64,000 nucleotides of DNA from assembly GCA_037176845.1 (NCBI GenBank), contig JAYKXP010000032.1, positions 62,001 to 126,000 of the forward strand, given 5' to 3'. Below the pieces are notes generated by a model that ran no database searches, was not told the origin of the DNA, and saw nothing but the letters and a program-made list of their open reading frames with translations. Below, one piece after another: positions 39,282 through 58,539 of this stretch. Position 1 is the stretch's first letter. The number at the start of each line of letters is the position of its first letter. A program made the position numbers and the translations under genes. This stretch comes from Paramarasmius palmivorus. Taxonomy: Eukaryota > Basidiomycota > Agaricomycetes > Agaricales > Marasmiaceae.

Positions 39282-41551
39282 ATGTCAGAAGAACCTGAAA
39301 TCATCCTACTTCCAGGGCCCTCTCCTGAGAATCATGAGTAAGCCTCAGCCTTCTAGTTTTACTACGCCCGCCAAACGGACCGGCATTCGTAGCGTCGTTC
39401 CATACACTTCCTTGCATGTCTTTCGCGACAAGAGAATGGAGCGAGTGGGATGTGAAATGGCTCGAAAATACGTTGGGCCGATGGAACCCAAGAAGTTTCT
39501 CGACGACTTCTTACCTCGCGGTCAGAGACGGACAAAGTTGTTCACGGCACACGTACAGCAGCAATTATACAATGTGGGATATGGTACAGGAGTCCGTGCA
39601 GAGAAGGACATGTATGAACCTTTGGTATGTTTTGACTCCTGGGACGTGCGCTCTGTGCTCAAAAATCTTCCTTGGTATCCAGATGACGGTATTGGCAGAC
39701 TTTTGTCCAGATATTCGTCTTGTCGACACTTCCGACGATGCTGATGACACTACATGGGCTCACCAACCTGGGCTCATAAAACCAGACATCTCCGCTTACA
39801 CCAAGGAATCTGGTGTCGATCGCAACGATATCTCTCGCACGGAGTTTTGGATGGAATTGAAGTGGTATGACACCGCCGACGGCTTTGACGACACAGAGAA
39901 CATGTCCTTTGAGAAGGTTGCAATGCAAGCTCGGGACACTCGTGCTCAACTCTCAACTTATGCTGGCGCGCAGCTTGTCAGTCAATTCCGCACGCACGCA
40001 TTCTCTGTTCAGCTCACTCGGGGCTACGCAAGGCTCATAAGATGGGACCGGGAGGGTGCCATCGTCACCAAGAAGTTCTGCTACTATAATGAACCTCACC
40101 TGGTCGATTTCTTATGGCGTTACAACCATGCGTCGTCTGAGGCTCGAGGATACGATCCTACGGTCGTCGAGATTACGAACCCGGCGCGCGCACAGGAAGT
40201 TCGTGATGCTTTGGAAATGGATGCCACGGATAGGGTATGGGAGTTCACGATTATCGACGAGCAAGGAGAGAAGCATGTCTTTACCGGTGGTAAGCTGGAG
40301 TTCAGAGGCGTCGCCAGTCCTGCTGGTCGTTCCACTCGCGGCTTCCTCGTGCTTGATCATCAAGGCGAGCGCCGCTACTTGAAGGATACTTGGAGGATTC
40401 TCAACAGCGCCATCCAAAAAGAGGGAGATGTATACGCCGTGCTCAAGCAACACAACGTTTCTCATGTTCCAGACGTCGTGGCATCTGGCGACGCAGTCGG
40501 ATCTTGGCAAGTTACAAAGACTAGCAAGTATCGAACCATTTCCCCTCAGGCAGCGCAGCTGGAACTTCGTCTCCACCAGCACTATTTCATCGTGTTTGCC
40601 CAAGTCGGCACTACTATAAAAAACTTCAAAGACAGCCACGAGCTAGTCCAGGCTACTGCCCACGCTATTCAAGGTTTGCTTCTCATATCTAATGTAAATT
40701 TGGTTTGGTTGCTTATCTATCCCTTAGCGCACAGGGAAGCTTACGAGAGAGCTAAAGTCTTACATCGAGACGTTAGTGCCGGAAACATCTTGATTACCCA
40801 GGAGGGTGAAGGACTCTTAATCGACTGGGAGTTTAGCAAGCCATTGGACTCCACAGCACCCAGGATCCTGGAGCGTACGGTACGTCCGTCACTCTTGTAA
40901 ATAGAATCATAACTAATGTCGCTTCAGGGAACATGGCAATTCATGTCCGCAATGCTTTTGGCAGACGAGCCGGGCGAGGTTGACCACATGCTTGCCGATG
41001 ACTTGGAGTCTTTCTATCACGTCCTTTGCTGGGTCACTCTTCTACACGGCCAACACGGTCTTGAGGATGACCAGGTCAAAAGACAACTTGCGCGGGTATA
41101 CGATTCTTGGCATGGCGTTGGTGCAGTGCCTGCGACAGGAGGTGAAGTGAAGAAGGTCACTCTCAACGAACGATGGATGGACAAAAAGGCGAAGCTTGCA
41201 CCCGGACCCTTTCGGAAGCTGGTCGTTGAGCTTGAGCAGACCCTTGGGGTGCGCTACATTGGGAATGGACCGTTCGTGAACCAAGACATGGTTAGAGAGT
41301 TCTTGAAGAAACTCGATAGTCATGACGCCTTTGTGGACATCTTTTCTCAGGCGCTTCAACACAAAGATCAGCTGAAGTCGCAAACGAGAGATACCCGCCG
41401 TGACATCAAACTGTTCATACTAGATCTCCGATCTGCAACGACGAGCGACAGAAAGCGGAAGAAGTCAGACTCTGAGTTAGAAGCGGAAGAGGAGATGGCT
41501 AAGGATGGGGGACGCCCTCCACAAAGGCTCAGGATCGAGTCCGAGTCTTAG
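39282..41551 (+). CDS. FunK1-type protein kinase, copy 1
   Basis: The inferred start is ATG 39282 (MSEEPEIILLPGPSPENH). A GTAAGC...TTCGTAG intron (39340-39393) then leads into VVPYTSLHVFRDKRM; the paralogue at 56268 keeps the same structure. Starting at 39334 without the intron is the alternative. Further introns give EPL + MTVLADFCP, AHAIQ + AHREAYERAK and ILERT + GTWQFMSAML. Kinase motifs: RRYLKDTWR (likely ATP-anchoring Lys), LHRDVSAGNILI (catalytic loop) and LIDWEFSK (DFG replaced by DWE). C-terminal RKRKKSDSELEAEEE is a nuclear-localisation-like tail. FunK1 kinases (PF17667) are expanded in mushrooms and of unknown substrate. Confidence 0.85.
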
Positions 41552-41810
41552 GATGCTTGGAAGTACTGCATTTCCCTTCATGTGTCCTAACTCTGTTGCC
41601 TCTGTGCCTATTACAAACTCACTTTACTCACGTTAGTTAAACATTTCACTTCCCCATACTTACGCGCATCCTTACATACACATATGTCAATACGTACTCT
41701 TGACTCAAACCTGAACCACTTTCGTTCACAACTGCCGGGCTCGAATTCGGTTGGTGGAAGGAAGGAAACCGGCACGTGGTCCTTGTACTGTAGAAGAACT
41801 TTGCGTATCA

Positions 41811-41921
41811 TAGCGTTGGGTAAAATCTGGAGCAAACTTACCAATTTCAAACTTACAAGGTAAGTTACTAGTAAGTTACTGGTAAGTTACTGGGGGACCC
41901 CGAAGCACCCAGGTAAGTTAC
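41811..41921 (+). repeat. hAT left end: 13 bp TIR and GGTAAGTTAC cluster
   Basis: TIR TAGCGTTGGGTAA is followed by subterminal motifs: AAACTTAC at 41834 and ~41849, and (G/A)GTAAGTTAC at 41859, 41870, 41881 and 41912. Subterminal short repeats are typical transposase-binding sites in hAT elements. From 41922 to 42508 I see no supported gene; a 90-codon frame at 41935 is not conserved-looking. Confidence 0.8.
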
Positions 41922-42508
41922 CGCGAGGTATCATGTGACCACCTCAATTACCATATACGGAAGGCTCCTTCTGGGAGCGACACGTCGACCAAGGACCTTC
42001 GACGAATCGACATCGCGGCATCGCCCATACCTCCCCAGTCCTAACGCTGAGCTTCAAGCGAGTATCCCTGCACTCGCGCTGACAATGTCACGCCTTACAT
42101 CTCATGCAGTATTCATCTCTAACACAGACTCAGTTCAGTTTCAACCACCTGTAGGTCCGATGGAGGTTGCCTGGGCTGCGGGCATTGCAGTAGAGCAAAG
42201 GAGATAACATGGTGCGTCTTAGTTATAAGTGAATACCTTCAGGACCCTAAATTGCCCTCCAGGAATCTACCTCAACCTTTTTGTGAAGATTCATATCCTC
42301 TATTACTAGTATTCCTAGGTCTTTTTACACTGCATGTACATTGGATATTAGAAGATAAGAATGAATTTCACTGATATACGCCATGCCCATCCTCTGGAAG
42401 AACCAAAGTCCGCCGGAGTAACGACCGACGTCCCGATCACCGACAGATTTTTTTTGATTCCTGTTGCAACGAGCGCGCTCTGCCCGACATCTGCCCAACC
42501 CCTTCATT

Positions 42509-43398
42509 ATGGCCGCCTCTGACAGTCCTACGCCCATAGCTGTCATTACCGAAGATGAAATCCCCGACACCCTCGCTACACAACTCCAAAAACACTTTCC
42601 AATACCACAATCAATGCGAGACGCGCTCCTGCTCGATGAGTCGGCATCGCTCACCGCACTTTCAGAGTTCCGGACACCCGATCGAATCCCTCCAGAAGCC
42701 TTCGATATCACTGCCGTTGCATTCTTCAACCAAAAGTGTATGATTAGTGAAGAAAATACCGAACAATTAAAAAGCCTTCTCACCGGTATTCGTTCCCCAC
42801 CAGCCGCTCAACTAGACAGCCTTTACGAACGTGCTCTTGATGCAAAAGAGAACGGTAACCACACACTGGCCATAGGCCCTACTTCCCCTGCTCGGATCCC
42901 ACTGTGGGTACTGTCGTACTGGTTTGAGGTCGAGGAGATCATGGTTGCGAAGGAAAAATGGAGCACAGCTGAGAAGTGGTTGAAAGCATGGCATAAGGAT
43001 GGCCTAATGCAGCTACGAGGATGGCCATGGAAGACAGAGTGGTTGGGGAGCTGGGTTCCCTTTACGGAGCATGTTGGACGGTTTTGCAGTGATGATTGGA
43101 TTGGGGACGAGCAGATGAATATGGTTGGGAGTATGGTGCAGTCAAGGCTTGACCAGAACGCAACGTTTGGCGAGTCGAGTTCACAAGTGATGAACACATT
43201 CTGGGTTCTGAAGCTCGTGCAAGCATTCCGGAAGGGGCAGAACGACTACCAAATCAACCCGAAAAGTTACGGGGCCTTGCACAATGCTGGGGAACGAGTT
43301 GCAGTAGGGAGTTTGAAGACCATTGCATTCAATGCAGGTGTGCGCCTGGGGAGTAACGGAGCAGAAGTGGTGGAGAGGGAAAGAGATGCGAATCATTG
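42509..43398 (+). pseudogene. Ulp1-hAT fusion gene, 5' part (broken at protease His)
   Basis: ATG at 42509 (MAASDSPTPIAVITEDE). About 300 residues encode an N-terminal region with WVLSYWFEVEEIMVAKEKW and PWKTEWLGSWVPF, ending ...ERERDANH at the retrotransposon junction. With the 5 bp duplication collapsed, the frame reads DANHWVTIKLC, the His-Trp-x-x motif of C48 (Ulp1/SENP) cysteine peptidases. The N-terminal region before the catalytic core resembles the substrate-gripping part of plant/fungal transposon-encoded Ulp1 proteins. As it stands the frame runs 5 codons into the LTR and stops (43414). Confidence 0.8.
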
Positions 43399-43614
43399 TG
43401 TAACGGTTCTGTGACTCGTTATCTTTACCCTAACCTTACGCTCACTTACCTTCCCTTTTCCGCTCACGGACTCTGGGTCTTTTCGTATATAAGGCCCCGT
43501 ACATTCTCTGTATTCCGCTTAGTCTCTCTTGAATCAACTGTGGTTACAACGGTTCTCTCGAGCGACTACCTATCTCGTGTGAGGTCACTGTGATCCCGTC
43601 ACGCTGCCCTTACA
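43399..43614 (+). repeat. 5' LTR
   Basis: 216 bp, TG...CA ends with 5 bp inverted tips TGTAA/TTACA. TATATAA at 43486-43492 is the likely core promoter. Directly downstream is TTTTTTGAACCCTCGAC; no TGG-initial tRNA primer-binding site is seen, so the priming mode is unclear. Confidence 0.95.
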
Positions 43615-43764
43615 TTTTTTGAACCCTCGACAACCACTCGAACCTCTGCGCTTACTCTAAAACTCTTCTCGTCGTCGTCGTCTCTTGCGTTCGGGCACCC
43701 CAGGTCTGATCAACCGCGGCTACCACCTCTAGGCGACACATACCCAACTTTTTCGGCTTTTTCT

Positions 43765-46700
43765 ATGTCTTCTCGTTACAATCTCCGAAGGACGGCTACT
43801 CACAGCCAAATCTCTGTGACGGCTACTCTCGATACCCAGGAGACGGTCGCTGGCGCTGACGAACAGCAGCGACAACATCGTCTCGAGTCCATCTCTCAGG
43901 TGAGTAATTCCGAATCTTTATCTTCTTTGTCCCCAAGTCGTGCTTCTTCACCCGAAGTACGCGTACCTGGCGTTTCTGCTGTGCAGAATGGCCGTGGTAC
44001 TCCCTCTGCCATCATGGGCGATGAGGCGGTCGACACCCTTGATGGTGTTGACATGGGTACGGATGGACAGTCAAGTGGTGTCATGGCGGACCCTGATTTA
44101 CGGGCGCCTGACCCTTGGCAAAACGTGCGCCCTCGTCGTAGGGCTGCGAGTTTTTCAAATGAAAACTCTGCGCACATAAACTCGAATAATTCGAGTATTC
44201 TGACCGACGAGCAGCGAAAAGCTGTCCGTGAAGCAGAAAAAAGTATGTCTGATGCGGATCGTCGTCATGTACGCGAACGCATGGGCATGATCATCACCAA
44301 TAGTGATGACGATACTGATTCCTCTGAAGAGGAGCAGGCTGATCCTGGCCCTAGTACCCTGAAGAAGGGAAAGGCTACTGATCCCCGTAATTGGGGAAAT
44401 GTTGGAATTGATGCTGACGAGCTCAACGCCAACAGGCAGCAAGCTGAGTTTGACCGAATTGCTCGAGAACATCAAACTCAACAGGAACCGCAACCTGACC
44501 CGGCATCTACGCGTGTTCCGAACAACACGCCGGTCGAACCGTCTGATGATGGGCATGTTCCAAAGAAAAAGGTGAATGATTCTCACCACAAGAGGAACAA
44601 AGCTCACCGGAAATCTCTCAAGGAGAAGAAACGGTCTCGCGAACGTGAACGGGCTGGCTCTGAGGCTATCAATGACCTCGTTGAAGACCGCATTCGTGAC
44701 CTTGTCGAAGACCGTAACCCCAAGAGCAAGAAACCGGGACGTCTCGCGTCAACTCAACTTCACAGCCGCCGAGACATTGACCGAATTGTTCGGCCAAGTG
44801 AACTCATTGCGCCAACTAATCATTTGGCCAAGATCTTGACTCCGGCGAAGAAAAGGAAGCGTCTCAGCTCCAAAAGACGTCGCAAGATGGGTTCGGGTCC
44901 TCCTGATGGTCCGTCCAGCTCATCTTCAGGTTCTTCAAGTTCCGACTCTTCTGATTCTGACTCAGATTCAGGTTCAGGTAGCCCGCCGTCTGATGATTCT
45001 AGTTCTGACTCAGGATCTGATTCCTCGAGCTCAGATTCTAGCTCAGACACTGACTCTGATGATGATCGTCGTCACCGTCACCGCCGCCGACACCACCGTC
45101 ATCGTTCTCGAGGCCGAAAACATCGTTCCAAGATGCTACTCAAACCTCCACCTCCTGAAATGTATGATGGATCCCCGGATGTTCGTTCATTCATGAAATT
45201 TGTCACGGAGGCTACGGCGTATGTCAAAGATGGTAGAATACCCAAAAAGCGACGTGTATTTTGGATAGCCAAGTACCTGAGTGGTAAAGGTTATCAATTT
45301 TACCTTAATGTCGTAGCTAGTTCTCCGTTTGAATGGAGGCTTAAGCAATTTTTCATTGAATTGTATAATTATTGTTTCCCTGTTACATACAGGCTGGATC
45401 AGCGCAAGAAACTTAAACGCGCTTTTCAGAATGACATGTCAGTGCGAGATTATCTCGCAGTTCTCAATGACTTGTACAATACCGTTGGACTTGTTGATGA
45501 GCGTGAAAAGGTTCACAAGCTCTGGTCTGGACTCAATAAGAAAATTCAGAAGGGTTTGTGGCGTGAAAAGCTCAACCCTGAAGTATCTTCGTATGATGAT
45601 GTTGCACGAACAGCTGAATTAATTGAAATTATTGAAAACGTGGATACAGGGCCTGATCCAGGTACCGGTAACAAGAAGAAGGAAAAGAGAAATGATCAGC
45701 CTTCTTTGTCCAAATCTCAGAATCCAAAACCTGGAAATGGACAGAGTCAGAAGCAGTCTCAAAACACACAGAATAATGCTTACCGTACTCAGAATCAAGG
45801 CTCCTCTAAGGGCCCGTCAACCCAATTCAAGTCTAATCAAAAGAATCAGGGTCAACGAAAAGGCAACCTGCAACGTCGGGAACTCACCGAAAAGGAAAAG
45901 GATGAGTACCGTGCTGCTGGTAAATGCTTCCGCTGCGGTCAAACCGGACACATGAGTCGGCAGTGTCCTCAGGGTAAAACTGTCCTATCAAACGGAAATG
46001 GGCCGCCGGGTGTTGCTGCTAATAATATCAACCTTGACATGGAAAATCTTCGAAGTCTTGCTGATACAACTGAGGAAATCACTGAAATTGGTATCAGTAT
46101 GCTTGAGCCAACTGATGATTTTGACTACGACACTTACAGTGGACACGTCTGGTCAGAATCCGGTGATGATGGCATGCCTGATCTTCAGTTTGTCGGTGAC
46201 ACTGAAGAAGAATGGTCAGATCTGGGTTCGGAGCCAGAAATAGAATCTGAGAACTTACCGGAGCGTGAACCAAGGCCATATGGCCTCACGGATGGTGTCT
46301 GCTGGCTGGAAACCCTGAAACAGCACACTGACTGTGAGTACGTACCCCCTGAGACTCGAAAAGAGTACTCTAGGCCCTGGTTACACAATGAAATCAATAA
46401 TGAAATCTTTGGGTTTGAAACAGATGACGCACCCAACATGGTTGGTGATATCCTCGGGCAAAGAGCAACTATGTGGTTGGATGCTCTCGCACCCTATCCA
46501 GGTGACCCAAAGAAGCTGAAATATCCAATATGGGAACGCTTCATGGTCTTCCAAGTGTCAGACGGCTTGTATTGCATTGAAGACCAGGAGTACTTTGGTA
46601 TTCCACATCCCACAATGGAAGAGCCTCAATGGATGTATATTGAGATGAAATTGCTGGAAAACCCTGACTTTCGGATTGGGGAATGGTATGCTTTTGAACG

Positions 46701-49700
46701 CGCTAAGCTGAATGAAGTACCTGTTGAACCATCAATGAGATGGGATGCACTTGGACAAATGAGAGACACGTACGGAGATGCCATTGAAAAGTGTCTCGAA
46801 GTCTCTGCTCCTCATCTCGATGATTCCCTCACTCCAGAACCGTATGATGGCCGTTTCATCGTCACCCGCAAAGGCCCAGAACTGTACTGCATCTGGGACC
46901 GTATCCGAGACTTCCGAACTGAACTCCCCACTAAATTCCTTCGAAATCGCCGCTTTGACCTTGCACGATGGTATCGGGTGAAGTTGGCAAAGGACAATAG
47001 GGATATTCGACTATGGATGCTGAAAAATTCACAGTTTCCGCGCTTGGATTTGTTTTTTGAGTGTATAAGCCATGCTACAAATCAAGCTATGGAAGAATTA
47101 GAATTGAATGGTGTTCAAGTACCTCAAGGAACGTACCCTGCTGTCCAGAGGAATGCAGCCATGACAAAAGACTTTTCAAGGAAGATCCCAAAGCCTATTG
47201 TGATCGTTGTGAGAGTTAATGGTGAGCCAGGTCGCGCGCTCATTGACACTGGCTCTCTTGGCGATTTCATTTCCTCAACATTTGCAGACCAGCTCAGGCT
47301 CAAGAAAATTGAGCTATTGAAACCCTTACCCTTACAATTAGCTGTTCAAGGATCACGATCAAGGATCAACTGGGGTGTCAAAGTCAATTTCAAGTATCAA
47401 TCCATCTCGGAAACCCGCTACTTCGATGTTGCTAACCTCTCAAGCTACGACCTTATCCTCGGAACTCCCTGGTTGTATCAACACCAGATCACGGTTGGAT
47501 TCCATGATGCCAAGGTGATCATTGGGAGTGGAAATTCTCTGCCGATTGAAGGAGAGAATGTTGCAAAGTTGTCTTCTCGGGCTATGGATGTGTACGAAGA
47601 TCAATTAGAGGCTGCCAGGCAAGAATTAACCAGGTACGCCCTACCTATTTGCCGTGAAGTTGGTGAGACTGAACTTCCTCCTCTCCGTGCCATCAACCAC
47701 ACTATCCCACTCATTGACCCCTCCAAAATTTACCCATGGAGACCGTCACGCTGTCCGGAAATGTTTCGCGCACAATGGGCCGAAAAACGCAACGCATATC
47801 TCAAATCTGGTCGCTGGAAGATGACTAGTGCTGGTAATACTGTCCCTATGCTTTTGATACGCAAGCCGGGTACTCAAAATCTTCGTGTTGTTGTAGATCT
47901 TCGTGCTCGCAATGCCAACACTCACAAATTATCCTCTCCAATGCCGGACATTGAAGGCATCAAACGACGGGTTGCGAAGGCGAAATATCGGTCTATTATT
48001 GATGGAAAAGATGCCTACGAGCAAATTCGTATCATTCCCGAGCACGTTGAACGCTCTGCCGTGACTACGCCCGATGGAAACATGGTGAGTCTTGTTGTTC
48101 AACAAGGGGATTGTAATGCCCCTGCTACATATCAGGCACTAATGAATTATCTGTTCTCAGAATTCATTGGACGGTGGATGGATGTTTATTTAGATGACAT
48201 TGTAATCTACTCGTCTACACTAGCAGACCATGTACAACATGTCAAAACTGTTGTTGATATACTGCGTCGTGAAAAGCTATACCTGAGTGCTAAGAAACTA
48301 AGTTTTCTTCCTAAAGAACTAAAGATTCTTGGGTGCATAATTGATGATAACGGAATCCGAATGGACCCGCACAAAGTTGATTCCATCCTAAAATGGCCAA
48401 CTCCAACCAACCGAGATCTTCTACGTGGATTTCTTGGTTCGGTTGGGTATCTGGCTGATGACATCGCGACTGTTCGGATACCTATGGGACAATTGAGCCC
48501 TATTACTGGTGATACCGTACCATTCAGATGGACCCACCTTGAGCAACGTGCCTTTCAAGATATCAAGCGCCTAGTGGAGGGCGCAAGAAATCATTCCCAT
48601 GTCCCTCTTGATTACTCTAAGAGTGCCGATCCCGTTTGGTTAGTAACTGATGGTTGCGGAACTGGTATCGCAGGAGTTGTATGCCAAGGGAAGGACTGGA
48701 AGAACGCAAAAGTTGCTGCGTTCTATTCGGCGAAGCTAAATCCGGCTCAACAGAACTACCCTGTCCATGAAATTGAAATGTTGGCTGGTGTCGAAAGCAT
48801 GCTGCGCCACCGGGATATCTTGCAGGGTCTTCAATTCACGTGGATAACTGACCACAAGGGTCTTGTTCATCTGATGAACCAAAAAGATCTATCAGGTCGT
48901 CAGGCTCGCTGGTTGGAGAAGATTTCGGAATTTGACTTTACCGTGCAGTACGTTGCCGGTTCCGAGAATGTTCTTGCAGATGCTCTCTCGAGGATCTATG
49001 CAAATGATAGGCCTGGAACGGTGAGAGCGAGAAGTGAATACACTTACCATGATGTCATTAACAATGACATTCTACTCTCGCACAACATCACCATGCCTGT
49101 TCTCGTTGATGTTGAGGCCTCGTGTCTTGTTCCTGAGTTGTTTGCCATGACCACTCGCAATGGCGGAAAACGGGTCAAGACCAGCTGGGAATTTGCCAAG
49201 CGAATGCGAGATCGTTTCGTTCTTCACGGTCCCCGAGAACGAAAGGAGGGCGAGGATGTACCACAAAGCCCTGAAACTCCTCAAATGTCAGCTACAGAGC
49301 AACCAAAAGTCGTCAATAAACCCACCGTAGCGGAGAACCTTGACACTACACCAGTAGCGGAGCCTAGTGTACCGGCCGACGAAACACCTGAGATCACTGA
49401 TACCATGCCTGAAAAGGAAACTAGCATGAGCATCAGGGATGCAGAGGGCGCGACTGATGAAAACATACCTAAATCCGACGCCGATGCATCTCTACTCACG
49501 GTGCTTGCAGCTGGGAGACTAAAGGTTGAGCTTGAAGTAATCCTGAAGAAACGGTATGCCGAAGACAGGTTCTTCAAACAGATTGTTGCCAAACCCAAGG
49601 ATTTCCGAAACTTTGAGGTTGAAAATGACTTGGTGTACCTCGTTAAGCCAGATCGAAAGGTCTTGTGTATTCCTAAGATACTGGTTAATGGCCGTAATAT

Positions 49701-52176
49701 CAGAGAATATGTGATAGATGAAGCTCACTCACTTTTGGCTCATCTCGGTCCCAAGAAGACACTTGATTATCTTCGAGACCACGTTTGGTGGAAAGAAATG
49801 GTCTATGATGTAAATGCATTCTGTGAGTCATGTCACACATGCAAACGCTCGAAGCCAAACAACCAGAAGCCCTATGGGCTGCTCAACACGCTCTCAGTAC
49901 CCAATTACCCTTGGGAAGCTATCGGAATTGATTTTGTTGGACCTCTTCCTGAATCGAAGGACCGGAACGGGTCGTATGATATGATTACCGTGGTCATTGA
50001 TCTTCTTACGGGAATGGTCCACTTGATCCCGAGTCGCACGACGTTTAAGGCGAAACAAATTGCTGAGCTTGTGTTTGCGGAAATCTATAAACATCACGGA
50101 CTACCTAAGACTATAGTCAGCGACCGTGATTCATTGTTCACGAGTATATTCTGGACTCACCTACATAACCTAATAGGCACGAAGCTAAAGATGTCAAGTG
50201 CTTATCATCCCCAAACGGATGGATCGACCGAACGCGCCAATCGTACGGTAACGCAAATGTTGCGCCAATGTGTTGCTATTGACCAGAAGGATTGGGTATT
50301 GAAGTTACCAGCTGTAGAATTTGCAATCAATATTGCGAGATCTAACACCACGGGGTATTCACCTTTCTTCTTGAATACGGGTCGTACTCCACGTCCATTC
50401 CTGTGGAACTCGGCTGCGAAAACAGAATATCCAGGTATCCGAGTATACGCCCAGCGAATGAAGCAGGCTATCATGCAGGCGCACGACAGTATCCTAAACG
50501 CTCGTGTGAAGCAGACACGCGACGCAAATCGTCGTCGACGCCCTGCCCCGTTTGCGGAAAATGATCTGGTATACTTGTCAACAGAAAATATCTCATTTCC
50601 AAAAGGTTACGCACGTAAACTAGTCCCAAAGTTCATTGGACCATACAGGATCTTGAAAGATTTCAAGAATTCATCATATCAGCTTGATTTGCCTTCACGT
50701 CTGAAGCAACGAGGCATCCACAATGTGTTCCATGCATCATTATTGCGAATCCATGTTCCGAACGATGATCGGCTCTTCCCTGGCCGTCTCGAAACTCAAG
50801 TTGCCGATTTTGGTGTAGTTGAAGGTGAATGGGCCGTCGACTCAATTATCGGACACTCTGGAACGAAGTCAGATGCACTATTCAAAGTGAAATGGAAGTC
50901 CGGGGACGTTACCTGGCTGCCATACCATGCAATAGATGGACTTGATGCTCTAGGTGATTATCTTGACTCTGTCGGAGTTTCTGACATTTCGGGACTTGTG
51001 ACAGGTGGTCAGGACGTTCTTGACCCTAATCTCGCTTCGTTTCAGGACCCTGAAGCGTCGGGAAGTGTTGGAGATACCGCTGGAGGGCGCAATGAACGCG
51101 ACTCCCGATTGAACTCCGACACTGATCTGGGAAGGAAGGAAATTAGCGGAATGTTTGTAGGAATGATGGGATGGCTGGAAACGAAGGAAGGAAAGGATAG
51201 AAAAGACGAAGAAAACATACCTATGGACCCCAAAACCCCTACTGGCACTCATTCACCTCACTCGCAACTCGTAATCGCATCTCGCACCATGCCAATCCAA
51301 AACTGGCTCACCCGTACCCCAAACTCCCAGACCGTTATCATTAACGACGTCGTCGGCGGCACTCGATTCACCATTACCCCCCTCGACGTTCATCGTTGCC
51401 TCTACACCGACTACGCACTTCGCAAACCGAATGCCAATCTCGCGGACATTCATATCCCCATGGCGTACACCACCATTGCTACCCTCTTCAACAACGACTC
51501 TGCATACTCTTGCAAGTTCGCCGTATTCAACCTGGGTGCCAACACCATTGTCGCGAACGGTCAGCCCGTCGATCGTCGACTCTTCAAGGAATATACCCGC
51601 GGTGCGACTTCTAGTCAGCCTAAGCCCCCACCACAAAACTCCTTCTCCGAATTTGGAGCCATGGCACCTTGGAAAAGGGAGGCGTTGAGTAATAGCCTCT
51701 GGCTCGCCTTCGAGGCCCAGCAGGATAACACTCTGAAGAAGAAACAGGGACGTCTTAGCCGAAAACAACGCAAACAAAACCGAGGAAAGAACACACCAGC
51801 CAAAGGTGTCCAATTCAATCAGGCTCTGGTAGCCTCCTCCTCTACCCAATCTGCTCCCATTCCTGCAGCTGACAGCCCAGCTCTCATCCATATGCTGACC
51901 CCGGCTCCAGTTCCCACTACAACTCCTCCTCCTCTCCCTAATGAACCCATTCCCTCTATCTCCGACCTCTTCAATGGCTCATTGCAGCCCATCGACGATT
52001 ACAATCTCACTCCCGAAGAAGTGAACGCATTTCTCGGAAACACTGACCCCATGATTGCTGGTACCTCGGCAGGTGGAAGTACTGATGACGATGTTGGAAT
52101 GACGGATGGTAACGGCGCGGCGGAAGGAACTGATAATGTTGATGTTGATAATTCTGGTGTCGGAAACACTGTTTGA
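43765..52176 (+). CDS. Gag-Pol polyprotein, single 2803-residue frame
   Basis: Single exon and frame, ATG at 43765 (MSSRYNLRRTATHSQ). Residues ~1-455 are disordered and basic, with a Ser/Asp run then Arg/His-rich stretch. Gag capsid-like core ~455-640 (PEMYDGSPDVRSFMKFV...). CCHC knuckle CFRCGQTGHMSRQC at ~720. A duplicated ~60-residue module lies at ~920 and ~1028. Protease DTG (LIDTGSLGDFIS) ~1158. RT from ~1340 with VVVDLRARN, DCNAPATYQ and YLDD (~1475). RNase H ~1627-1740 (VTDGCG...ADALSR). Integrase zinc HLGPKK...CESCHTC ~1990-2025, then catalytic D ~2055, D ~2118, E ~2153. Chromodomain-like VDSII...VTWLPYHAI ~2357-2388. A ~410-residue C-terminal extension of unknown function follows. 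Confidence 0.95.
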   Translation: MSSRYNLRRTATHSQISVTATLDTQETVAGADEQQRQHRLESISQVSNSESLSSLSPSRASSPEVRVPGVSAVQNGRGTPSAIMGDEAVDTLDGVDMGTDGQSSGVMADPDLRAPDPWQNVRPRRRAASFSNENSAHINSNNSSILTDEQRKAVREAEKSMSDADRRHVRERMGMIITNSDDDTDSSEEEQADPGPSTLKKGKATDPRNWGNVGIDADELNANRQQAEFDRIAREHQTQQEPQPDPASTRVPNNTPVEPSDDGHVPKKKVNDSHHKRNKAHRKSLKEKKRSRERERAGSEAINDLVEDRIRDLVEDRNPKSKKPGRLASTQLHSRRDIDRIVRPSELIAPTNHLAKILTPAKKRKRLSSKRRRKMGSGPPDGPSSSSSGSSSSDSSDSDSDSGSGSPPSDDSSSDSGSDSSSSDSSSDTDSDDDRRHRHRRRHHRHRSRGRKHRSKMLLKPPPPEMYDGSPDVRSFMKFVTEATAYVKDGRIPKKRRVFWIAKYLSGKGYQFYLNVVASSPFEWRLKQFFIELYNYCFPVTYRLDQRKKLKRAFQNDMSVRDYLAVLNDLYNTVGLVDEREKVHKLWSGLNKKIQKGLWREKLNPEVSSYDDVARTAELIEIIENVDTGPDPGTGNKKKEKRNDQPSLSKSQNPKPGNGQSQKQSQNTQNNAYRTQNQGSSKGPSTQFKSNQKNQGQRKGNLQRRELTEKEKDEYRAAGKCFRCGQTGHMSRQCPQGKTVLSNGNGPPGVAANNINLDMENLRSLADTTEEITEIGISMLEPTDDFDYDTYSGHVWSESGDDGMPDLQFVGDTEEEWSDLGSEPEIESENLPEREPRPYGLTDGVCWLETLKQHTDCEYVPPETRKEYSRPWLHNEINNEIFGFETDDAPNMVGDILGQRATMWLDALAPYPGDPKKLKYPIWERFMVFQVSDGLYCIEDQEYFGIPHPTMEEPQWMYIEMKLLENPDFRIGEWYAFERAKLNEVPVEPSMRWDALGQMRDTYGDAIEKCLEVSAPHLDDSLTPEPYDGRFIVTRKGPELYCIWDRIRDFRTELPTKFLRNRRFDLARWYRVKLAKDNRDIRLWMLKNSQFPRLDLFFECISHATNQAMEELELNGVQVPQGTYPAVQRNAAMTKDFSRKIPKPIVIVVRVNGEPGRALIDTGSLGDFISSTFADQLRLKKIELLKPLPLQLAVQGSRSRINWGVKVNFKYQSISETRYFDVANLSSYDLILGTPWLYQHQITVGFHDAKVIIGSGNSLPIEGENVAKLSSRAMDVYEDQLEAARQELTRYALPICREVGETELPPLRAINHTIPLIDPSKIYPWRPSRCPEMFRAQWAEKRNAYLKSGRWKMTSAGNTVPMLLIRKPGTQNLRVVVDLRARNANTHKLSSPMPDIEGIKRRVAKAKYRSIIDGKDAYEQIRIIPEHVERSAVTTPDGNMVSLVVQQGDCNAPATYQALMNYLFSEFIGRWMDVYLDDIVIYSSTLADHVQHVKTVVDILRREKLYLSAKKLSFLPKELKILGCIIDDNGIRMDPHKVDSILKWPTPTNRDLLRGFLGSVGYLADDIATVRIPMGQLSPITGDTVPFRWTHLEQRAFQDIKRLVEGARNHSHVPLDYSKSADPVWLVTDGCGTGIAGVVCQGKDWKNAKVAAFYSAKLNPAQQNYPVHEIEMLAGVESMLRHRDILQGLQFTWITDHKGLVHLMNQKDLSGRQARWLEKISEFDFTVQYVAGSENVLADALSRIYANDRPGTVRARSEYTYHDVINNDILLSHNITMPVLVDVEASCLVPELFAMTTRNGGKRVKTSWEFAKRMRDRFVLHGPRERKEGEDVPQSPETPQMSATEQPKVVNKPTVAENLDTTPVAEPSVPADETPEITDTMPEKETSMSIRDAEGATDENIPKSDADASLLTVLAAGRLKVELEVILKKRYAEDRFFKQIVAKPKDFRNFEVENDLVYLVKPDRKVLCIPKILVNGRNIREYVIDEAHSLLAHLGPKKTLDYLRDHVWWKEMVYDVNAFCESCHTCKRSKPNNQKPYGLLNTLSVPNYPWEAIGIDFVGPLPESKDRNGSYDMITVVIDLLTGMVHLIPSRTTFKAKQIAELVFAEIYKHHGLPKTIVSDRDSLFTSIFWTHLHNLIGTKLKMSSAYHPQTDGSTERANRTVTQMLRQCVAIDQKDWVLKLPAVEFAINIARSNTTGYSPFFLNTGRTPRPFLWNSAAKTEYPGIRVYAQRMKQAIMQAHDSILNARVKQTRDANRRRRPAPFAENDLVYLSTENISFPKGYARKLVPKFIGPYRILKDFKNSSYQLDLPSRLKQRGIHNVFHASLLRIHVPNDDRLFPGRLETQVADFGVVEGEWAVDSIIGHSGTKSDALFKVKWKSGDVTWLPYHAIDGLDALGDYLDSVGVSDISGLVTGGQDVLDPNLASFQDPEASGSVGDTAGGRNERDSRLNSDTDLGRKEISGMFVGMMGWLETKEGKDRKDEENIPMDPKTPTGTHSPHSQLVIASRTMPIQNWLTRTPNSQTVIINDVVGGTRFTITPLDVHRCLYTDYALRKPNANLADIHIPMAYTTIATLFNNDSAYSCKFAVFNLGANTIVANGQPVDRRLFKEYTRGATSSQPKPPPQNSFSEFGAMAPWKREALSNSLWLAFEAQQDNTLKKKQGRLSRKQRKQNRGKNTPAKGVQFNQALVASSSTQSAPIPAADSPALIHMLTPAPVPTTTPPPLPNEPIPSISDLFNGSLQPIDDYNLTPEEVNAFLGNTDPMIAGTSAGGSTDDDVGMTDGNGAAEGTDNVDVDNSGVGNTV

Positions 52177-52220
52177 ACTTTGACGGACTCTCTTTGTAGA
52201 TAGAAATTCATTCTGAATCC

Positions 52221-52232
52221 CTGGAGGGCGAA
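52221..52232 (+). promoter_or_regulatory. Candidate polypurine tract
   Basis: CTGGAGGGCGAA immediately 5' of the 3' LTR; purine-rich (GGAGGGCGAA), in the position where plus-strand DNA synthesis is primed. Confidence 0.6.
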
Positions 52233-52448
52233 TGTAACGGTTCTGTGACTCGTTATCTTTACCCTAACCTTACGCTCACTTACCTTCCCTTTTCCGCTCA
52301 CGGACTCTGGGTCTTTTCGTATATAAGGCCCCGTACATTCTCTGTATTCCGCTTAGTCTCTCTTGAATCAACTGTGGTTACAACGGTTCTCTCGAGCGAC
52401 TACCTATCTCGTGTGAGGTCACTGTGATCCCGTCACGCTGCCCTTACA
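52233..52448 (+). repeat. 3' LTR
   Basis: 216 bp, no difference from the 5' LTR noticed on reading. Followed by the duplicated CATTG. Confidence 0.95.
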
Positions 52449-52453
52449 CATTG

Positions 52454-55400
52454 GGTGACGATCAAACTCTGCATCCCGACGATGACATTGGCTTTCGGGG
52501 ATTCTTGGTCGGCCAATCACGAAATTCCTGGCGAGTTGAGGCAGATGATTGAGTGGTGGTTAGAAAAGCATGGGCAGGGAAGTGTGTTGCTCGACGCACC
52601 TCTTCCATGTAGCACCCAGACTGACAGCAGCTCCTGTGGGATCCTGGCTGCCAACGCTCTAATGCATGCTTTTTTCCCGGATGACTTCCCACTTCTTGAT
52701 CCACGCAATTGCAAGAGGGGTCGAGTAGATCTATTCTTGAGGGTCTTGACCTACTTTGTAAAAGGGGTGAGTCAAGCCTTTAAGTCAACGACTAATATCA
52801 CTCACCGGCTTCTAGGAACCTGGAATCAGGACGACAACAGCTCTCCCTCAGCTCTCTGCATTCAACTTCAGCTGCCCGCTGCCAACAAAATCACAGGATG
52901 ATGGCCCAACAAAAGGAGGTCCAAAGAAAGCAGCTACAGGTTCTGCACACTCGGTCTCAAAAACCAAACCGAAAAAGCAGGATAGTGGCACACAGGATAA
53001 ACGGAGCTTCTTGGCAGCATTCGGTATGGCACCAGATGATGGATCCGAGGACGAGTTGGATGATGATGGTGATGGTGAGGGAGTAAGAGAGGTGACGGCT
53101 GACACAAGCAACTGGGTAAACTCCCCAGCAGTACCGAAGAAGAAGAAAGGGGGACGAAAGGGGGACGAGCTGCTGAAGAAGCTAGCAATACGAGCGTATG
53201 ACAAGTCAAAACCTGCACCGCGGGTGTATTTTTATCGCTGCCTCACCCCTGGTTGCAGTGGGCGTTATGCTAACCAGAATAGAAGACGATGGTACAACCA
53301 CGCTTATGAGGGTTGTCCGAGGATTTCTAAGGAGCTGAAGAAGGCGGTGGAGGCGGCGTTGGTCCAAGAGGCACCGTCCATGGTTCTAGCTCTCGCAAAG
53401 AGCAATAAAGAGGCTGGTGAGGAGCCTGAAGAAGATGACGAAGATGGTAATATGGAGGAACAAGCGTCCAAAAGGCTGAAAGGAGAGGATGGTGAAGGTG
53501 TTCCAGTTACCGTTGATCCCAAGCAACCTTCCGTGGTTGCAATTGTGCGTCGAGCTGGTCGCCAAATTCGCCATGTCAAGATGGACCTCGCAGTCACAAA
53601 GTTGGTCTGTATCGCTGGATTGCCACTTTTCCTAGTCGAGCGTCCTGAATGGATCTACCTTCTTCTCATTGCCGACAAAACCTATAAACCACAGACACGA
53701 AACAAGCTTCTCGAAGATATTCAGGCGGAATCTGCTCTATGCATTGGGCAACAACTTATATACCTCAAGAACCACCAAGACCTCACTTACTCCTGTGATG
53801 GGGGTACGAGTCGAGGGAGAGACTCGTTCTGGAACAGTCATGTATCAACAGCAGATGGCGACGTTTATAAGATGGGAACACTTGAGGCTACATTTGTGTC
53901 TCATACTGCCGAATGGATCCTCAATTCTGTCTGTCTACCGGTGAGTCTGAAAGCCTTTCTCCTGCATACTGTTTCTCATGGATGTTTAGATAATCGACGA
54001 CATAGGCCGTGATCGTTTTGCTGGTGTTGTATCAGACAGCACTGGTAACACTAAAGCCTTTCGGGGGCTTCTCGTCAAGCTTATTCCGACAATTATTGAG
54101 GTTCCCGATTGTGTTCATCACTTAAACCTTCTGGTCAAAGACCTCGCCCAACTGAAGTTCTTCGAAATGGTGTGTTTATACTGAAAAGATTTCTTAACTG
54201 AATGTTGACGTTTTCGCTAGGCTATCAAAGTTGACCGAATGGTTATTCAGCGCTTCCACAAATCCCACTTTGGGATATATGAGCTGCAGGAAGAGCGGAA
54301 GAAACAGGGCGTGGGGCGTGGTCTTGAAGCTATTGGGAAAACTCGATTCGGAGGTGTGGTACATGCAGCTATTTCTGTCCAGCGTTGCAATGGATCTATT
54401 CAAGCTATTGTTAAACGGGGAGCGGTGAACTGCCAGGTGAGAAAAGCTGTTAAATCAAGTGTTACCATTCGATCTGAATCCTTCTTGTGACAGGGATTTT
54501 CGGCGTATTTTGGAGAGTCGCGGCGTAAAACTGCTGAATATGAAACGCTCCACAGCCAGTTCATTTCTGTTGGTGAACCGATAGTGGCAGCTATTCGGTG
54601 CATGGAAGCTACTCAGGCCACATGCGCTGATGTCTGGGTATACTGGCATGCTCTCGTGTACACGATTAAAGCTGCTATTGAGAACGACGAGGAGATGGGT
54701 GATGAAATCCGAAATGACATCATGGACATTGTGGCGTACCGGTACAATCAGCTGTTTGGACCAAAACCGTCCCTTGGCAGTTCGATTTACATTGCTGCAG
54801 CCTATCTTAATCCTGGTAATGTTGACAGTCTCTGATTTCATTTTATGAAGCTCATTTCTGCGCGCAGGATACAAGGATGCTGTAAATGGCTTGTTCTCAG
54901 AAGACCGTGATACGTCAAAGGAGGAGTACCGTGGGATCCATTCTGTTCAAGTGTTCAAGGTTGTCCTCAAGTTCCTGCATGAGCATGCAGTCAATGAAGT
55001 CAAATACGGAACCAAGCCGATGTTCGTGCAATACAGGAACCACGGTGAGCAGTTTACCGCCAAACTCAAGGATGAAATGATTCGCTATGCAAGGGGATCA
55101 TTCCCCTTTGACGGCGTGTTTGACGTTGACTCGACGAGTCCACAAGAATGGTGGAGGCGTGTTCTGAAATATGATCCTAAGTCCATTCTGCCGGTAAGTA
55201 ACATTCACTGTAGCACCGTAACCATACCTGATATGAGACTTTCTCAGCTTATTGTACTCAAGATATATGCCATTCGCCCAAACTCTATGGCAGAAGAGCG
55301 AACGGTCTCAAACTTTACTTGGATTACACCCCCTGTCCGAAACAGGATGAGCACCGCAACGATGTCACAAATGACAACGGTACGTCAATACTATCAGGCC

Positions 55401-55864
55401 AACGAAATCAAGGTACAGTTCAGAGTTGCATGAATGATGGGAAATGGTCATTTAGAAGTTATTTATTATAGTCCCGCAAGTCACATTCACGACCGATCTT
55501 GAGGTACCACGAAATAGCCAAGTCAAGGTCTACCCAGCCAGAGTCTGTGGATAAAGATACGCCAAACACGGTATCGGAGGACCCCGATATTCAACCAGCT
55601 GAGGAAGAAGAAGATGACAGCTGGCTTGACACGCGCACAGAGGATGATGCGGCTGCGGAGCAGAGTCGGCCTGGACAGTGGCACAGCTTGCTTACAGCGC
55701 TGGCTAAGAACGTCAACCTGGAGAGTCTGTATTTCAGGGGGCTTTTGTCGAAGAAGGAAAATATGATGCCTGGGGCATTGATGCGAGCAAAAGGTGAGTC
55801 GGCAGGGACAAAGAAAACAGAGAGCATGGGTAACGAAAACCAAAACTTCGGCTTGGATATTTAA
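52454..55864 (+). pseudogene. Ulp1-hAT fusion gene, 3' part (protease core and hAT transposase)
   Basis: Resumes the frame broken at 43398: WVTIKLC, FGDSWS (catalytic Asp), then STQTDSSSCGILAANAL (oxyanion Gln and nucleophile Cys) of the C48 peptidase. An intron at ~52768-52816 joins TYFVKG to EPGIRTTTALPQL, and the frame continues without a stop into the hAT part. This has CLTPGCSGRY...HAYEGC (BED-like zinc finger), LVCIAGLPLFLVERPEW, YSCDGGTSRGRDSFW, VVSDSTGNTKAFRG, DCVHHLNLLVKDL and the dimerisation region WWRRVLKYDP...RPNSMAEERTVSNFTW. Six or so introns; stop TAA 55862-55864. Without the insertion this would be one protein of roughly 1,200-1,300 residues. Confidence 0.82.
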
Positions 55865-56018
55865 CTATGTGTATACAGTAGCATAGTGTCAAAAATCAAC
55901 ATTAGTGTCTGGCATAAATTACTACAATCACTTAGTAATAAAGGTGGTTGGCTTTGGGAACGCGCGAAGCGCGACGAAAAATTGGCCCACTTTGGGACAG
56001 CACGTGACCTAACTTACC

Positions 56019-56109
56019 GGTAAGTTACCTGGTAAGTTACTGGGCCCTCCGAGCCGTCCGTAAGTTACCTGGTAAGTTACCAGCGCCGAGGCAAACTTAC
56101 CCAACGCTA
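56019..56109 (-). repeat. hAT right end: GGTAAGTTAC cluster and TIR
   Basis: (G/C)GTAAGTTAC at 56019, 56031, 56059 and 56071, AAACTTAC at 56093, then TTACCCAACGCTA, the inverse of the left TIR. The TSD GCGTATCA follows at 56110-56117. Confidence 0.8.
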
Positions 56110-56267: not shown

Positions 56268-58539
56268 ATGTCGGAAGATCCAGAAATCGCCCTCGTTCCA
56301 AGGCCATCTCAGCATCCTGAGTAAGCCTCAGCCTTCTAGTTTTACTACGCCTAACAAATGACCACCATTCGTAGCATTGTCCCATATACCTCCATGCAGG
56401 TCTTTTGCGATAGTAGAATGACCAGGGTTGGTCGGGACATGGCTTACAAGTTTGTGGGACCAGTTGACCCAAAGAAGTTCCTTGACGACTTTTTACCTTG
56501 TGAAACAAGACGGACGAAGTTATTTACAGCACAGGTGCAGCAGCAACTGTTGGAAGTGGGATATGGGAAAGGTATTCGTTCCGAAAAGGATATGTACGAA
56601 CCCTTGGTGCGCTCTAGTTCCGTTTCTGTCTCTATTCTATGCTTAAAGAAAGCCACTGTTATGGTCAGATGATGGTTTTAGCGAACTTCTGTCCAAATCT
56701 TCAACTCGTCGATACTTCCAACGATGCTGACGATACCAATTGGGCACATCAACCAGGCCTCATCAAGCCAGACATATCCGTCTACACAAAGACATCTGGT
56801 ATCAATCATAACGACATTTCTCGTACCGAGCTCTGGACGGAAGTCAAATGGTATGACGGTGCTGACGGGTTCAGCGACGAGCCTCTAGAAAAGCTCACGA
56901 CGCAAGCTCGTGACACTCGAGCTCAACTCTCAACCTATGCCGGAGCGCAGCTTGTCAGCCAGTTTCGTACGCACGCGTTCTCTGTTCAGCTCACTCGGGG
57001 ATATGCGCGACTCATTCGATGGGACCGGGAAGGTGCTATTGTCACCAAGAAGTTCTGCTATTACAATGAACCTCATCTGATCGACTTCTTATGGCGCTAC
57101 GACCATGCGACATCCGAAGCTCGTGGACATGACCCCTCTGTCATCGAAGTAACCGACCCAGTGCGCGCACAAGAAGTACGGGACACTCTAGGAATGGACA
57201 CTACAGATAAGGTGTGGGAGTTCATTGTTATCGACGAACAGGGAGAAGAACACCGCTTCGTTGGCGGCAAGCTGGAGTTCAGAGGCGTCGCCAGCCCCGC
57301 TGGTCGTTCCACGCGCGGGTTTCTCGTGCTAGATGGGCAGGGGAAACGCCGCTACCTGAAGGATACCTGGAGGATTCTCAGCGATGCTATCCAAAAAGAA
57401 GGAGAGGTATACGACTTGTTGAAACAGCATGATGTATCTCATGTCCCAGATGTTGTGGCCTCCGGCGATGCAGTGGGACCTTGGCAAGCCACGATGACCA
57501 ACAAGTATCGATCCTGGACGGCTCACGATGCGCAGCTCCAGCTACGTTCCCATCAACATTATTTCATTGTGTTCGCTCAAGTTGGGAGGACTATCAGAGA
57601 CTTCAAGGACAGTCTCGAACTGGTGCAGGCTACCTTGCACGCGGTCCAAGGTTCGTGTTCATCGCATACCTGTGTCTTTGGTGCAATATTGATTTCTGTC
57701 TTAGCACATCAAGAAGCCTACGAGAAGGCCAGAATTTTGCACCGAGACATAAGCATCGGAAACATCTTAATCACCGAGGAAGGTGAAGGACTCTTAATCG
57801 ACTGGGAATTTAGCAAGCCGTTAGACTCCACCAAACCTCGAGTGCTTGAAAGAACGGTAAGGGTATTCCTTCGCTTAGAAGAACACCCATGACTGACGCT
57901 CATTGATAGGGAACCTGGCAATTCATGTCCGCTAGACTTTTAGCAAACAAGCCAGGCGAAGTCGATCACACACTCGCCGATGACTTGGAGTCTTTCTATC
58001 ACGTCCTCTGTTGGGTTATTCTTATGCACGGCGAACATGGACTCACAGACGACGAAGTCAAGAACCAGATTGCCCGAGTGTACGACTCATGGCATGGCGT
58101 TGGTTCAACGGCTGCAACCGGCGGCGAAGCGAAAAAAGTAAACTTGACCGAAGGATGGATGGCCGACAAGGCGAAGCTTGCTGAAGGTCCTCTTAAGGAC
58201 CTGATTGCTAAGCTCGAGGATGCTCTCCACGCACGTTATGTCAGAACGCGCCTAGTGAACCGAGAGATGCTCGATGCTCTCTTGAAGGATCTAGAGAGTC
58301 ATGCTTCGTTCATGGATATATTCTCGGAAGTACTTCAACAGAAGGATCAGCTGAAGTCACAAACGCGAAACGACCGCCGTAACATCAAGTTGTTCGTCCT
58401 TGATCTAGAGTCTACCGACATAGCGACCGATAGGAAGCGCAAGAAAACGGACTCTGAGCTAGAAGCGGAAGAGCAGGAGGAGATGGCTAAGGATGGTGGA
58501 CGTCCTCCACAAAGGCTCAGAATCGAGTCAGAGTCTTAA
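56268..58539 (+). CDS. FunK1-type protein kinase, copy 2
   Basis: ATG at 56268 (MSEDPEIALVPRPSQHP). A GTAAGC...TTCGTAG intron leads into IVPYTSMQVFCDSRM. Here the intron contains an in-frame TGA, so the spliced start is required unless translation begins at the ATG near 56358. Other introns match copy 1 in position. Motifs: RRYLKDTWR, LHRDISIGNILI and LIDWEFSK; the tail is RKRKKTDSELEAEEQ. The segment SQFRTHAFSVQLTRGYARLI is identical to copy 1. The kinase is likely a tandem paralogue of the gene at 39282, now 14.7 kb away because of the transposon insertions. Substrate unknown. Confidence 0.85.

Follow-up and report, generated by a model that had tools for sequence, protein, structure and literature searches.

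Ulp1 domains are already known inside or beside transposases, namely in Ginger1, CACTA, MULE and Crypton elements, and the comparison below holds for the available portions of the papers cited. Ginger1 (PMC2836005) resembles the fungal element described here in being a cut-and-paste element with Ulp1 in the same protein as the transposase, an arrangement predicted here, but its Ulp1 or OTU domain is C-terminal, its transposase is Gypsy-integrase-like and the hosts named are animals, whereas here the Ulp1 part is N-terminal, the transposase is hAT-like with a DUF659-like core and the host is a fungus. In plants, CACTA-ULP elements (PMC2528002), members of the CACTA superfamily, combine Ulp1 with a transposase, and rice proteins with both Tnp2 and ULP1 domains have been described. 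Kaonashi and VANC-Ulp1 of the Vandal elements (PMC13317346, PMC6117577) share with our element a retained Ulp1 and an anti-silencing context, which for our element is a proposed one, but these plant elements are Mutator-like and keep the Ulp1 gene separate from the transposase, unlike the predicted fungal hAT fusion, which has an 8-bp duplication, a hAT-like core and, in its uninterrupted copy, a single open spliced frame. Crypton elements with a C48 peptidase (PMC3212892) likewise encode an Ulp1-type peptidase within a transposon; they are, however, tyrosine-recombinase elements of oomycete hosts, and the CryptonS peptidase is an additional protein.

Extra enzymes are also found in fungal hAT elements. 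The hAT7 elements (PMC12730594) carry a TET/JBP gene with a proposed anti-silencing role, in some families upstream and in the same orientation, as is the Ulp1 part here; they differ in their 7-bp duplications (8 bp here), in the enzyme, a dioxygenase, and in their rust fungus hosts. The main text of that paper contains no occurrence of Ulp, protease, peptidase or SUMO. An N-terminal Ulp1 part on a hAT transposase was not found described in the titles, abstracts and passages covered by the literature searches. The initial annotation had called such a fusion a less common architecture; its novelty is smaller than that wording suggests, as the available parts of the Ginger1 (PMC2836005) and CACTA (PMC2528002) reports already describe fusions.

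A hAT-type element and its second copy

The window, i.e. the whole stretch of 64,000 nucleotides of Paramarasmius palmivorus DNA that was analysed, is part of contig C32 and contains a hAT-type element at 41811-56109, with TAGCG ends and an 8-bp duplication. Elements of the hAT superfamily have short inverted repeats with TAGNG/CAGNG-type ends, and those of the window element are 13 bp long and perfect. Its boundary features are as follows.

41803-41810, unstranded: left 8-bp target duplication GCGTATCA
41811-41823, + strand: left terminal inverted repeat TAGCGTTGGGTAA
41860-41921, + strand: left subterminal repeats, four copies of GTAAGTTAC
43399-52448, + strand: later LTR retrotransposon, outside the hAT element proper; its 216-bp LTRs are identical and its duplication is CATTG
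56020-56080, + strand: right subterminal repeats, four copies of GTAAGTTAC
56097-56109, - strand: right terminal inverted repeat, reverse complement of TAGCGTTGGGTAA
56110-56117, unstranded: right 8-bp target duplication GCGTATCA

A search of the genome (68.3 Mb, 393 contigs) with the pieces flanking the retrotransposon recovered a second copy on contig C40 (234854-240097, 5,244 bp) that lacks this insert, has ends identical to those of the window element and lies within its own 8-bp duplication, GTGTAGTA. Since this duplication is a different one, the boundaries of the window element are supported independently and wrongly placed ends can be ruled out; the target duplication and TAGCG ends reported in the initial annotation are borne out. 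With the retrotransposon excluded, the two copies differ at 20 of 5,244 positions. A relative on contig C52 also has an 8-bp duplication, CTCTGAGG (such a pair appeared in 1 of 200 shuffled flanks), and TAGGG ends matching at 12 of 15 positions, while no convincing duplication or ends were found around a further relative on contig C131.

Exact matches to the 13-bp end were confined, genome-wide, to the four ends of the window and C40 copies. A DNA search with the first 690 bases of the element returned the two copies and one 38-bp match on contig C148. A large family of short derivatives sharing these ends was considered and rejected: with at most one mismatch the end occurred at 51 places, the four ends included, against 72 in a backwards control. 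The subterminal repeat GTAAGTTAC occurs nine times in the window (0.28 expected), eight of them within the two ends of the element. Similarly, all eight occurrences of GTAANTTAC in the C40 stretch and all five in the C52 stretch lie near the element ends, and there are none in the C131 stretch or in that of a different element on contig C248 (see below). Judging by this placement near both ends, the GTAANTTAC repeats are likely transposase sites, and their presence at the ends of both the C40 and C52 elements leads us to read them as a binding site common to the two proteins. Just outside the window element, matches to Pkinase_fungal (PF17667, cut-off 24.1 bits) were seen on both sides (40913-41551, 24.3 bits; 56618-57892, 82.6 bits).

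The retrotransposon sits inside the first exon of the element's gene, in the protease part, with the His-Trp motif at the insertion point. CATTG stands on both sides of it (43394-43398 and 52449-52453) and only once in C40, and its two 216-bp LTRs show no differences; identical LTRs together with the 5-bp duplication indicate a young insertion. It carries one frame of 2,860 residues and looks Ty3/gypsy-like by eye.

The gene and the identity of its parts

Once the retrotransposon is set aside, the following gene model is obtained for the window element.

42509-43398, + strand: first segment of exon 1, with a putative start ATG and the N-terminal portion of the Ulp1-type protease as far as the His codon
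52449-52766, + strand: second segment of exon 1, carrying the protease motifs His-Trp, GDS and Q...SCG; the repeated CATTG occupies 52449-52453
52767-52815, + strand: putative phase-0 junction intron of 49 nt with a CTAAT motif
52816-53940, + strand: exon 2, linker, BED-like finger and the opening stretch of the transposase core, in which the first D lies
53239-53316, + strand: BED-like finger, C-x4-C...H-x4-C
53990-54169, + strand: exon 3, region of the second D (DSTGNT), matched weakly by DUF659
54221-54436, + strand: exon 4, transposase
54494-54815, + strand: exon 5, transposase
54868-55193, + strand: exon 6, transposase
55248-55412, + strand: exon 7, dimerisation region, aligned weakly to Hermes, in which NSMAEERT holds the putative catalytic E
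55472-55864, + strand: exon 8, acidic tail and stop

In the C40 copy a single open frame of 1,309 codons in eight exons spans both the protease and the transposase; its first exon (401 codons) carries the Ulp1 part, and the transposase part begins in exon 2. The seven introns, placed by hand from the sequence, are 49–59 nt long and GT-AG throughout; one is in phase 1 and the other six are in phase 0. In the window the junction intron reads GTGAGT...CTAG. Its phase, again placed by hand, is also 0 in C40, C131 and C52, and the CTAAT motif is present in C40 and C131 and absent from C52. Of the diverged relatives, C131 contains a single in-frame TGA, whereas C52 has decayed further, exon 2 holding two stops, and also shows a frame break. 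The window and C40 differ in 15 of the 1,309 codons, nine differences being silent and six replacing. Without selection, replacing and silent changes would be expected at roughly 3:1, and the replacing changes are fewer than this. The Ulp1 exon alone has one silent and two replacing differences, too few to judge selection.

A single frame running from the C48 motifs across the junction intron into the finger and hAT core had been proposed from the window, and it is found intact in C40 and again in a protein of another fungus, Marasmius tenuissimus AAF712_004054 (P0003), which is annotated as one gene with Ulp1 part and transposase. As read from these frames, the element's one gene very probably encodes a protein in which protease, linker, BED-like finger, hAT core and dimerisation region follow one another, i.e. 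a fused architecture.

The C48 motifs expected from the initial reading (HW, D, Q...C) are present in the window and in C40 as NHW, GDS and Q-x-D-x-x-S-C-G. The protease part of these two copies gave neither a Pfam match nor a PDB match by phmmer when searched alone, and its identity therefore rests on relatives. PF02902 (cut-off 20.7 bits) was matched by C131 (25.1 bits), C52 (24.8), C248 (36.1) and, narrowly, a Trametes protein, P0005 (20.9). A profile built from six related modules, one of them partial, had yeast Ulp1 (1euv) as its best PDB match (E 8.6e-8), followed by SENP1 and chlamydial deubiquitinase/deneddylase enzymes, and its His, Asp, Gln and Cys aligned with the catalytic residues of yeast Ulp1. 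These four residues are kept in all six modules that cover them, at pairwise identities of 20–46%. The Ulp1-type part is thus expected to be active on a ubiquitin-like protein, the solved enzymes matched by the profile covering SUMO, NEDD8 and ubiquitin cleavers.

For the transposase, an RNase H-like core of the DUF659 type, a family reported in the available part of PMC3985635 as hAT transposases, was recognised through PF04937 (cut-off 34.7 bits), whose cut-off was just exceeded by P0004, a protein from another M. tenuissimus record (35.2 bits), narrowly missed by P0003 (33.1) and missed by a wide margin by C40 (24.2). A profile search of the joined product had been suggested for both domains; in C40 it brought out DUF659, at this sub-threshold score, but not PF02902. 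The best PDB match of the family profile was the Hermes transposase, in the dimerisation region, and was weak (E 0.089), and the element loci were not listed in a PF05699 profile search of the genome. D334, D397 and E749 (P0004 numbering) are invariant in the four sequences compared, and we take them as candidates for the D-D-E residues, an assignment made by motif and not by structure. A structure prediction for P0004, aligned with P0003, had a mean pLDDT of 28.9, too low for use. The BED-type finger (C-x4-C...H-x3/4-C) was recognised by its pattern in C40, C131 and C52, and searches of the window and C40 gave no Pfam BED match. As sequence features, the length of the duplication, the ends and the patterns of the finger and of D-D-E are in line with a hAT assignment.

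Linkage of the two parts in relatives

Each of two transposase queries found the same number of loci in the genome, four (C32, C40, C131 and C52), and each of two Ulp1 queries found five, the additional one being on contig C392. The Ulp1 part lies on the same strand and just upstream at 4/4 transposase loci, and a transposase accompanies 4/5 Ulp1 loci. The C392 module (stretch L021 2282-3220) belongs to the same family, breaks off after the catalytic His and has no transposase part in a tblastn search of the piece up to the contig end; it is likely a remnant. None of the remaining hAT-like loci in this genome (34 PF05699 matches and four of six DUF659 matches) was among the places found by the Ulp1 searches. 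Four DUF659-like hAT loci (C278, C232, C94 and C49), all under the Pfam cut-off, are possible outgroups for the transposase tree.

Divergence among these loci is large. Measured against C40, identity in the Ulp1 part is 26% for C131 and 27% for C52, and in the transposase 32% for both; between C131 and C52 it is 34% and 45% in the two parts, respectively. Chance adjacency or an assembly artefact can be rejected, given that the order is shared by the two copies, which lie at separate sites, and by the two diverged loci. In the trees of both the Ulp1 and the transposase part, C40 and P0003 form one group and C131 and C52 another, the pattern one would expect had the two parts travelled together. 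The recurrence of the Ulp1-hAT design in such diverged relatives suggests that it is probably useful to the element and not an accident.

Outside this genome, the nearest proteins found by protein search were from Marasmius tenuissimus and Trametes. P0003 (1,343 aa) is 49% identical over 100% of the query and bears the UniRef name ubiquitin-like protease; it is a database entry for which no description in print was found. It has 23 extra residues at the position of the last C40 intron, between dimerisation region and acidic tail, and for this reason the model may have kept an intron. A third protein search, with a three-sequence profile, returned P0003 only; both this search and the one that had yielded the Marasmius and Trametes proteins scored the 7,995 candidates with the most words in common.

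A second Ulp1-bearing element was seen on contig C248 (20379-26778; stretch L032 2380-8779), where the Ulp1 frame is followed by a different transposase-like region related to P0005. The element is bounded, over 6.4 kb, by inverted ends that agree at 32 of 34 positions and by an 8-bp repeat, TCACGTCC; behind its Ulp1 part there is a possible 51-nt phase-0 intron, read by hand. P0005 is built alike, with a related Ulp1 part and then a different region, in both cases without a Pfam match, and in the Ulp1 tree, which has no outgroup, this pair falls between the C40/P0003 and C131/C52 groups. The different architecture behind the Ulp1 part leaves room for a mobile Ulp1 exon. It is conceivable, although we would not expect it, that the phase-0-ended exon is a portable cassette placed before at least two transposase types (the hAT group and that of C248/P0005), with retention of the junction intron switching between a free and a DNA-tethered protease as a local anti-silencing device.

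A proposed tethered protease and its alternatives

Taken whole, the explanation we favour, by a modest lean, is a fused gene whose protease acts as a tethered, local de-tagging enzyme; the mode of action as such, in which an element-bound protease strips tags locally, we would put slightly below an even chance. The finger would dock the protein on the subterminal repeats and so bring the protease to the element, where it may free the transposase complex, or proteins of silencing and repair, from SUMO or a different ubiquitin-like tag, and removal of the tag would allow the element to be expressed or moved. Being linked to a DNA binder, the protease would exert its effect locally. The suggestion in the initial annotation that the element edits SUMO- or ubiquitin-like tags on its own transposase or on host silencing factors is thus a plausible one. 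Several published observations provide a background, each as given in the available part of its source: the Sleeping Beauty host factor HMGXB4 is under the control of SUMOylation (PMC10138897); the Ulp1 and OTU domains of Ginger1 have been suggested to act on repair factors (PMC2836005); the fungal hAT7 elements with their TET/JBP genes offer an analogy (PMC12730594); and VANC of plant Vandal elements, some members of which have an Ulp1 domain, lowers the methylation of its own family (PMC13317346).

The target of such a protease could instead be mainly the transposase itself, affecting its stability, nuclear localisation or assembly, and not host silencing or repair proteins. Fusion in cis would suit this, as would a site resembling the SUMO consensus that lies between finger and core in C40, P0003, P0004 and C52, but the site is absent from C131 and its basic context could equally be a nuclear signal. 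Moreover, the number of SUMO-like sites per protein is near or modestly above the shuffled expectation (observed/expected 3/1.37 in C40, 0/1.08 in C131, 2/1.19 in P0003, 5/0.74 in P0004 and 2/0.84 in the partial C52), and we regard a mainly self-directed protease as unlikely.

The region could also give two products, a free Ulp1 protease made when the junction intron is kept and a transposase translated from an internal ATG, the fusion then being a minor product or not made at all. Retention would indeed end the protease frame after a tail of 44 (C40), 9 (C131) or 48 (C52) residues, and in the window the unspliced Ulp1 frame meets a stop at 52899-52901; P0004 (908 aa), too, is predicted as a transposase only, its Met lying about 20 residues behind the junction position in P0003. 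Against this, the first in-frame ATG behind the junction comes 70 codons on in C40 and 127 in C131, and in C52 only behind the zinc finger, although in both C40 and C131 exon 2 can be read from its first codon onwards, with no stop in the spliced frame. An intact copy with a stop and a separate ATG between the two parts, which would have spoken against the initial reading, is not what C40 is, and exon 2 of C131 has likewise neither a stop nor a nearby ATG. P0003, in turn, was predicted as one gene. The Ulp1 exon used as a query, in a search that needs shared short words, returned the window's own piece alone among 5,512 candidates, and hence no separate relative of 220–702 aa was found. On balance a two-product arrangement appears distinctly unlikely.

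Transposons often capture pieces of genes. That the Ulp1 exon is a passenger taken from a host gene, with a protease that has no role in transposition, has a parallel in the plant MULE and CACTA elements that picked up Ulp1 (PMC2528002, PMC13317346, in their available parts), but is improbable given that the Ulp1 part accompanies the transposase at 4/4 loci and, across a deep divergence, in Marasmius, and that the catalytic residues are kept in 6/6 covering modules.

Under the favoured reading of a fused, tethered protease, the element bears on a wider question. Ulp1-type domains recur in several unrelated transposon groups, and in plant elements their precise function is unknown according to the available part of a 2026 review (PMC13317346). 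With a protease joined to a DNA-binding transposase, and with an uninterrupted copy whose ends are defined, the question of Ulp1 function becomes open to experiment. Were its action confined to the vicinity of the element, the protease would amount to a de-tagging enzyme with natural targeting.
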